64,000 nucleotides of DNA from the NCBI RefSeq assembly GCF_003955715.1, contig NZ_CP034463.1, positions 3,286,001 to 3,350,000 on the forward strand. The letters are read 5' to 3'. Source of the stretch: Streptomyces aquilus (lineage in GTDB: Bacteria > Actinomycetota > Actinomycetes > Streptomycetales > Streptomycetaceae). The notes beneath the pieces were generated by a model. That model was not told where the DNA came from and made no database searches. It saw only the letters and a list, made by a program, of their open reading frames with translations. The position numbers and the translations under genes are program-made. The first letter of the stretch is position 1; each line of letters opens with the position of its first letter. Shown here piece after piece: positions 22,893 to 23,189 of the stretch.

Positions 22893-22978
22893 CGGAGAGG
22901 GCAGGATTCGAACCTGCGCGGACTCAATGAGCCCGACCGTGAGCACGGTCCCCGATAAACCACTCCGGGCACCTCTCC
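22893..22978 (-). tRNA. Serine-type tRNA-like gene 1, collapsed anticodon loop
   Basis: The 86-nt transcript folds with a perfect 7-bp acceptor stem (GGAGAGG/CCTCTCC), G discriminator and no encoded CCA. The D stem is CCCG/CGGG (a fifth G-T pair is possible) around an AGTGGTTTA loop, and the variable arm is 6 bp (GGGCTC-ATT-GAGTCC). The T arm is canonical (GCAGG-TTCGAAT-CCTGC). A long variable arm plus G73 is the serine identity set. The anticodon arm is abnormal: GACCGT pairs with ACGGTC leaving only GCTC; even opening the last pair gives a 6-nt loop TGCTCA rather than seven. It can probably be serylated, since SerRS ignores the anticodon, but should not decode normally. Confidence 0.75.
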
Positions 22979-23002
22979 CAGCAACCACCTACTGCACCTG
23001 CG

Positions 23003-23088
23003 CGGAGAGGGCAGGATTCGAACCTGCGCAGACTCAAAGAGCCCGACCATTCACACAGTCCCCGATAAACCACTCCGGGCACCTCTCC
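23003..23088 (-). tRNA. Serine-type tRNA-like gene 2, GNRA-capped anticodon arm
   Basis: Second 86-nt copy, identical to copy 1 in acceptor, D and T arms. The anticodon arm is GACTGT/ATGGTC closed by GTGA, a GNRA-type tetraloop; opening the inner pair gives a 6-nt TGTGAA loop. The variable arm is GGGCTC-TTT-GAGTCT. Relative to copy 1 the changes turn G-C pairs into G-T pairs or fall in loops, so the fold is kept while the sequence drifts. That argues for a selected structure rather than a decaying pseudogene. It is separated from copy 1 by 24 nt. No CCA is encoded. Confidence 0.75.
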
Positions 23089-23103
23089 CTGTTACACACT
23101 GCG

Positions 23104-23189
23104 CGGAGAGGGCAGGATTCGAACCTGCGCGGACTCGATGAGCCCGACCATTTGCACGGTCCCCGATAAGCCACTCCGGGCACCTCTCC
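23104..23189 (-). tRNA. Serine-type tRNA-like gene 3, GNRA-capped anticodon arm
   Basis: Third 86-nt copy and the first to be transcribed, 15 nt from copy 2. Acceptor, T arm and G discriminator match the others; the D loop has one change (AGTGGCTTA). The anticodon arm is GACCGT/ATGGTC with a GCAA tetraloop (GNRA class), or a 6-nt TGCAAA loop if the last pair opens. The variable arm is GGGCTC-ATC-GAGTCC. It lies about 50 nt downstream of a possible -10 that follows SARP-type repeats, so it appears regulated with the pathway rather than as housekeeping tRNA. Confidence 0.75.

Follow-up and report, generated by a model that had tools for sequence, protein, structure and literature searches.

Three tandem RNA genes in the analysed window, a stretch of 64,000 nucleotides of the Streptomyces aquilus chromosome, form complete serine-type cloverleaves that have no normal anticodon loop. 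Judged by their sequences, they are most probably non-decoding tRNAs; their predicted role is to carry serine, in trans and as a dedicated supply, to the VlmA-like transferase of what is probably an azoxy pathway. A reading of the sequence alone had put forward this interpretation, and the comparisons described here lend it support.

ARAGORN places three genes of type tRNA-???, with 'anticodons' of two bases, on the minus strand; compared with unit 1, unit 2 shows 92% identity and unit 3 shows 94%. Reading and folding show an acceptor stem GGAGAGG/CCTCTCC with seven of seven pairs, followed by G73, a D stem of 4 bp with GG in its loop, a variable arm of 6 bp and a T stem of 5 bp with TTCGAAT. 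The RNAs thus have the class-II cloverleaf, G73 and long variable arm of a decoding tRNA-Ser, and all three lack its 5-bp anticodon stem with a 7-nt loop and U33. Their anticodon arm is 16 nt long and can form either 6 bp with a 4-nt loop or 5 bp with a 6-nt loop, so that a normal 7-nt loop is impossible. Both ARAGORN and the folding bear out the collapsed arms described in the sequence-only reading. The GNRA tetraloops it had singled out are not a general trait: loops vary across the relatives, and GNRA loops were rejected as a feature of the family.

No Rfam family reached its gathering score at the coordinates of the array, and the 74 tRNA matches found in the host genome (10.39 Mb in a single contig, of the same genus as genome G003 below) do not include the units. 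Two of these matches, with equal scores, lie close to the chromosome ends (G000:C1:8544-8617 and 10385371-10385444), probably in terminal repeats. Outside the array, the host has tRNA-Ser genes with anticodons GCU (two), UGA, CGA and GGA; given these separate genes, its decoding should not need the three units.

Table 1. Features of the window and its flank, with the evidence for each call.
Feature	Position	Strand	Evidence and remarks
tRNA-Ser-like unit 1 (5'-most), G1-G73	23104..23189	-	ARAGORN, reading and folding, scanner; covariance model R1 92.6 bits
tRNA-Ser-like unit 2	23003..23088	-	ARAGORN, reading and folding, scanner; R1 87.5 bits
tRNA-Ser-like unit 3	22893..22978	-	ARAGORN, reading and folding, scanner; R1 92.5 bits
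Degenerate anticodon arm, unit 1: GACCGT-GCAA-ATGGTC	23146..23161	-	Reading and folding
Degenerate anticodon arm, unit 2: GACTGT-GTGA-ATGGTC	23045..23060	-	Reading and folding
Degenerate anticodon arm, unit 3: GACCGT-GCTC-ACGGTC	22935..22950	-	Reading and folding
Predicted SARP-type operator	23259..23287	.	Located between the array and the transferase gene; three copies of TGAC, which reads GTCA on the strand of the RNAs, at 23259, 23270 and 23281, with 11-nt spacing
VlmA-like aminoacyl-tRNA transferase, 334 aa	23378..24382	+	PF09924; Pfam match, family alignment; divergent from the RNAs
ACP gene of the ACP/PKS operon that the array points at	22359-22679
AurF/ferritin-like protein, probable VlmB-type azoxy gene	2532..3512	-	Weak Pfam match below cut-off; role by analogy (PMC9379638)
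Flavin reductase, probable VlmR-type	3509..4051	-	Pfam match
186-aa protein, VlmO-like by position only	4120..4680	-	No Pfam match
Class-III aminotransferase, probable amine-forming step	5283..6566	-	Pfam match
Acyl-CoA-dehydrogenase-like protein, probable VlmH-type N-hydroxylase	6580..7719	-	Pfam match
Aldehyde dehydrogenase family protein, probable Ady2-type step	7773..9374	-	Pfam match
Cluster SerRS, 431 aa	G000:C1:3283092-3284384 (L147:5090-6385)		1.6 kb outside the window; above the TIGR00414 cut-off
Cluster SARP regulator	L147:4261-5052		Just outside the window
RNase P class A RNA (Bacterial), 294.8 bits	31479-31889	-	~8 kb from the array
91-nt tRNA-Gln called by ARAGORN	56491-56581	-	No Rfam support; probably false

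The array is not a chance feature, since 126 distinct units with the same body were found. To find these units we used a scanner that requires a 7-bp acceptor, a 5-bp T stem, TTCRA and the D-loop GG, and R1, a covariance model for which 70 distinct units served as input. In these 70, the letters of all 16 acceptor, D and T stem pairs are invariant, as is the D-loop GG in the unit alignment. Variation does occur in the variable arm and at the base of the anticodon stem, where pairing is kept: over all stems, 99.2% of cells are paired, against 35-60% when the alignment is slid. Among deeper members, one pair of each of the acceptor, D and T stems shows changes on both sides, and 432 of 432 cells are paired; acceptor and T-stem pairing is partly given by construction, because most rows had passed a scanner demanding those stems. 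Salinispora and Microbispora units (loci L137, L138 and L143) have an extra T-stem base, which might weaken EF-Tu binding.

The anticodon arm behaves otherwise. By a rough heuristic, the 126 units have 112 different arms of ~14 to 36 nt, and an arm of 5 bp, 7 nt and U33 can be formed in only five of them, compared with four of five canonical tRNA-Ser controls. G73 and C74 are present in all 148 units counted with duplicates and tandem members, and CCA is encoded in 27. This hypervariable arm suggests that selection for decoding is gone while the rest of the molecule stays selected. Some copies are probably decaying: the scanner accepts 20 of 22 model matches taken from 19 loci, and the other two have a broken acceptor pair (one in L257, the other at 10620-10705 of L268, where it is the weaker of two at 57.6 bits).

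How closely the RNA follows VlmA-like genes was assessed in several samples. An alignment of four VlmA-like proteins, used as a query on named genomes, gave 68 loci, of which 51 contain the RNA according to the scanner; R1 added four (L114 and the three loci of Salinispora and Microbispora), making 55. The RNA is divergent from the vlmA-like gene and at most 700 nt from it in 52 of these, and lies ~3 kb downstream in L123, L125 and L127. Whole-genome search for the 13 loci with no adjacent RNA found 2-15 copies elsewhere in 11 genomes and no copy anywhere in the genomes of L121 and L106; the RNA is thus somewhere in the genome for 66 of the 68 loci. At the contig end where L106 begins, the letters are CTCTCC, which is how the first bases of the RNA read on the opposite strand. 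The genome of L121, which has no RNA, has a VlmA at 68% identity.

Across 295 Streptomyces genomes, R1 scores fall into two groups, at least 62 bits (35 genomes) and below 58 bits, the line of 62 bits having been set after the scores were seen. A VlmA-like gene (E<=1e-60) occurs in 61 of the 295 genomes overall and in 34 of the 35 RNA carriers (Fisher p ~1e-26). The one exception, G168, has a PF09924 gene (L277:10850-11680) 2.4 kb from its RNA, which is also flanked by an aminotransferase and a SARP gene. These counts and those of the named loci are not independent, as they share genomes (for example G003, G033, G035, G093 and G146). The class sample of 394 genomes has scores of at least 67 bits in five: the host, three more of its genus and G562, from another family. 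In all four non-host genomes the contig of the RNA also carries a VlmA-like gene, with identities of 59-73%. Nine further matches of 51-55 bits were found in other genomes of this sample.

On a tree of 63 VlmA-like proteins, with four short rows of 177-277 aa and with G168 on a long branch, RNA presence needs two changes against a shuffled mean of 20.8, which ties the RNA to particular VlmA lineages. The expected recurrence with VlmA-like genes is therefore seen across genera, in locus counts, among carriers and along the VlmA tree.

Other lineages do without it. Laxer filters applied to the 27 VlmA-positive, RNA-negative genomes gave nothing above 49.6 bits, and two of these genomes, G086 and G073, have a 62% identical VlmA, so the VlmA reaction is not always RNA-dependent. 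Weak 81-nt model matches in RNA-negative genomes were rejected as candidates, since ten of ten checked are tRNA-Tyr; weak 87-nt matches of 51-55 bits occur in G047, G105 and G184. ARAGORN and the scanner found no substitute RNA in 14 loci from RNA-negative genomes, ten of which span only 3-4 kb and one of which (L314) holds a SerRS and not a vlmA-like gene. RNA-negative VlmA lineages probably use ordinary aminoacyl-tRNA, and perhaps another amino acid. RNA-less VlmA clusters are represented by L315 and L316 (a 26-protein clade and the G086/G073 pair), and these too may use another amino acid.

Several genomes (G003, G033, G117, G146, G213, G258 and G282) hold more than one copy of the RNA. In G033, G117 and G146 no copy adjoins the vlmA-like gene; G033 has eight, all away from its VlmA/SerRS cluster. 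Copies are also found in nine Streptomyces plasmid records, at least one of which is the same replicon as a G117 contig (342,739 bp); the PLSDB annotation tables list no RNA genes and are uninformative on the copies. Dispersed copies at L069 (6898 and 12006) and L064 stand by homologous neighbours in G003 and G033, which suggests inherited places. G003 also has two copies 5 kb apart, whose units are identical and whose sequence is nearly so upstream and immediately downstream, making up a cassette of ~190 bp; no mobile element was noticed there.

A common upstream motif links these places. After removal of 37 later tandem members, one unit with short upstream sequence and seven duplicates from the 148 units, 103 first units remained. 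A pair of GTCA exactly 11 nt apart precedes the first unit in 43 of 50 cluster arrays, plus the window array, and in 32 of 36 copies that do not adjoin a vlmA-like gene (for one of them, L075, the distance is 22 kb). Only five of 16 deeper-lineage arrays have it, and many of these have TCTCAG repeats instead; mononucleotide shuffling predicts at most 0.1 occurrence per group. SARP regulators are described as binding heptameric repeats whose period is classically 11 bp; in S. viridifaciens, the VlmI sites upstream of vlmA-vlmH comprise three heptamers (PMC10972967). What the sequence-only reading had called a pathway-type promoter thus corresponds to a predicted SARP-type operator, found at the cluster and at most dispersed arrays. 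From this operator and from the three genomes with no adjacent copy, we infer that dispersed copies are transcribed and act in trans. Degenerate copies scattered as random pseudogenes had been named in advance as evidence against the proposal: copies away from clusters do exist, but they are not random pseudogenes, because all genomes searched that hold them also have a VlmA-like gene, the body is nearly always kept and the operator is mostly present.

The genes around the array resemble those described for the valanimycin and azodyrecin clusters (PMC9379638), and we predict by analogy that the cluster makes an azoxy product. The transferase belongs to the VlmA family (PF09924), and structural relatives of this protein include alanyl- and lysyl-tRNA-dependent lipid aminoacyltransferases; 'VlmA-like' is here a label given by family and gene set. 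Among the 120 listed of 1611 VlmA relatives, the names given by the sources are DUF2156, MprF-like and similar, and none says VlmA. Genes for a reductase, an aminotransferase and an acyl-CoA-dehydrogenase-like protein occur in the window, the AurF match is weak and the VlmO-like protein has no Pfam match. The cluster extends past base 1 of the window, where an extra SerRS and a SARP/BTAD regulator, both features of valanimycin-type clusters, are found. The host has three SerRS genes, this one included. The second (G000:C1:4552553-4553743) shares 45% identity with the one in the cluster; the third, near 5319422, resembles housekeeping serS.

The amino acid carried is best approached through G73 and this synthetase. 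G73 fits serine, and the host tRNA-Tyr and tRNA-Leu genes shown have A73. Sequence kinship to tRNA-Ser, as a proof of serine, was not upheld: among 43 host tRNA calls the nearest canonical body is tRNA-Tyr (34), ahead of tRNA-Ser (27-31). In a sample of 62 genomes, 35 RNA-positive and 27 RNA-negative, 21 have a SerRS of the cluster type (57-71% identical), and 20 of the 21 are RNA-positive; the other SerRS proteins are at most 45% identical, apart from an 84-residue piece at 69% in G079. The cluster type is absent from 15 of the 35 RNA-positive genomes. In L314 (G153:C36) and at G093:C1:4446702, such SerRS genes lie away from their genome's vlmA-like gene; G153 has no RNA. Valanimycin VlmA uses Ser-tRNA (PMC12945691). 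For the azodyrecin homologue alanine is proposed, being the only amino acid seen in print, with the alanyl-tRNA taken as coming from the cellular pool (PMC9379638). The serine type proposed for the RNAs thus holds for G73, the class-II shape and the cluster SerRS and does not hold for the body, which is closer to tRNA-Tyr; a serine identity would follow from the first and third of these, not from body likeness. A translation-sparing arrangement had likewise been proposed, and the separate host tRNA-Ser set and cluster SerRS agree with it.

Other explanations have to account for the same observations. Degenerate anticodon arms, tandem and dispersed copies and the two acceptor pairs broken among 22 matches would suit decaying tRNA pseudogenes riding along with the cluster. 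For most copies this is already contradicted, as the acceptor, D and T letters are invariant in 70 distinct units while the arm is not, deeper members have compensatory changes, 32 of 36 non-adjacent copies keep the operator and the RNA state is linked to VlmA lineage; we hold decay to be highly improbable as a general account. Functional odd-loop tRNAs that decode, frameshift or suppress codons in pathway genes are scarcely to be expected from a family whose arms share no common anticodon, in a host where tRNA-Ser of four anticodon types is located elsewhere, although the 6-nt loops of the window units do contain bases readable as U33-like and G34-like (GCA, GUG and GCU).

The orientation of some arrays invites a different reading, namely that the RNA acts in cis on the operon downstream of it, as a T-box-like leader or attenuator or as a processing signal: the window array points at an ACP/PKS operon, and those of L057 and L072 at a SARP gene. 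Such a role is disfavoured because the next called downstream gene lies on the opposite strand in six of 18 dispersed copies; G033 has a VlmA/SerRS cluster and only non-adjacent copies, and others sit on plasmids, so that we regard a leader as very unlikely. The pseudogene, leader and decoding readings were tested and then set aside. The charged RNA might also be a regulator or sponge (for example a SerRS decoy or a self-resistance RNA) and not the donor of VlmA. Copy numbers of up to 15 and the SerRS paralogue in many of the genomes would fit, but the RNA tracks VlmA (34 of 35) more widely than it does the SerRS paralogue (20 of 35), and we consider this improbable.

Among known RNAs, the allo-tRNAs of the Soll laboratory are reportedly serine-type tRNAs of unusual shape, with anticodons. 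Their acceptor and T arms are 8/4 or 9/3. The serine type and unusual shape are common to both, but the units described here have 7/5 arms and no anticodon. The non-proteinogenic tRNA-Gly of S. aureus, used for the peptidoglycan bridge, is likewise considered to be reserved for a tRNA-dependent transferase and kept out of translation (PMC4052509). Its A51-U63 pair is found in 70 of 70 units here, a weak likeness, as it also occurs in one of five canonical host tRNA-Ser. The S. aureus RNA as described has lost G18-G19 and has A49-U65 (PMC4052509), whereas GG is kept here and pair 49-65 is G-C in 70 of 70 units. Unlike in S. aureus, the anticodon arm is lost and the genes follow antibiotic clusters. 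The RNAs would work like this set-aside tRNA-Gly, but two of its three tested features are not shared and there is no anticodon at all.

The pseudo-tRNA tRNA-Other of Bacillus cereus also has no role in translation; it borders a genomic island and is linked to phenotypes of the cell wall and of resistance, and the part of its description available mentions no operator-sharing family with a transferase (PMC3399842). Closest in its genes is the valanimycin system of Streptomyces viridifaciens (VlmA, VlmL and VlmI), which has in common a VlmA-type transferase, an extra SerRS and a SARP with three-heptamer sites; its donor is described as Ser-tRNA-Ser, and the portions available of these descriptions mention no cluster RNA (PMC12945691, PMC9379638, PMC10972967, PMC4052509). 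The claim that no described biosynthetic cluster encodes such RNAs stands among the literature matches listed, whose scope leaves out preprints and most subscription papers: in the parts available, none describes an azoxy cluster with a tRNA gene or a carrier tRNA that lacks an anticodon.

We propose the following route for non-decoding seryl carriers. Going by the motif, the pathway SARP would induce the RNAs along with the cluster. By homology, RNase P and the CCA enzyme would mature them, and the cluster SerRS if present, or else the housekeeping SerRS, would serylate them. SerRS recognises the acceptor and the long variable arm, not the anticodon, so the RNAs should be chargeable. The VlmA-like enzyme would then move serine from the RNA onto an alkylhydroxylamine. 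A charged RNA with no anticodon would be useless to the ribosome; the pathway would therefore have its own seryl pool and translation would not be drained.

A review describes as unknown both the way in which Ser-tRNA leaves translation for valanimycin and the tRNA elements recognised by VlmA and VlmL (PMC4052509). The RNAs would be a direct and testable answer: a tRNA gene that gave up decoding and kept charging and delivery. If this is true, a tRNA has been retained purely as an amino-acid carrier, which would be a natural orthogonal aminoacyl carrier and a marker for finding azoxy clusters, and an antibiotic regulon would include tRNA genes scattered over the genome. For azoxy-producing actinomycetes, we think it likely that this anticodon-less tRNA family, dispersed on chromosomes and plasmids as a SARP regulon, constitutes a second, ribosome-blind pool of aminoacyl-tRNA for making small molecules.
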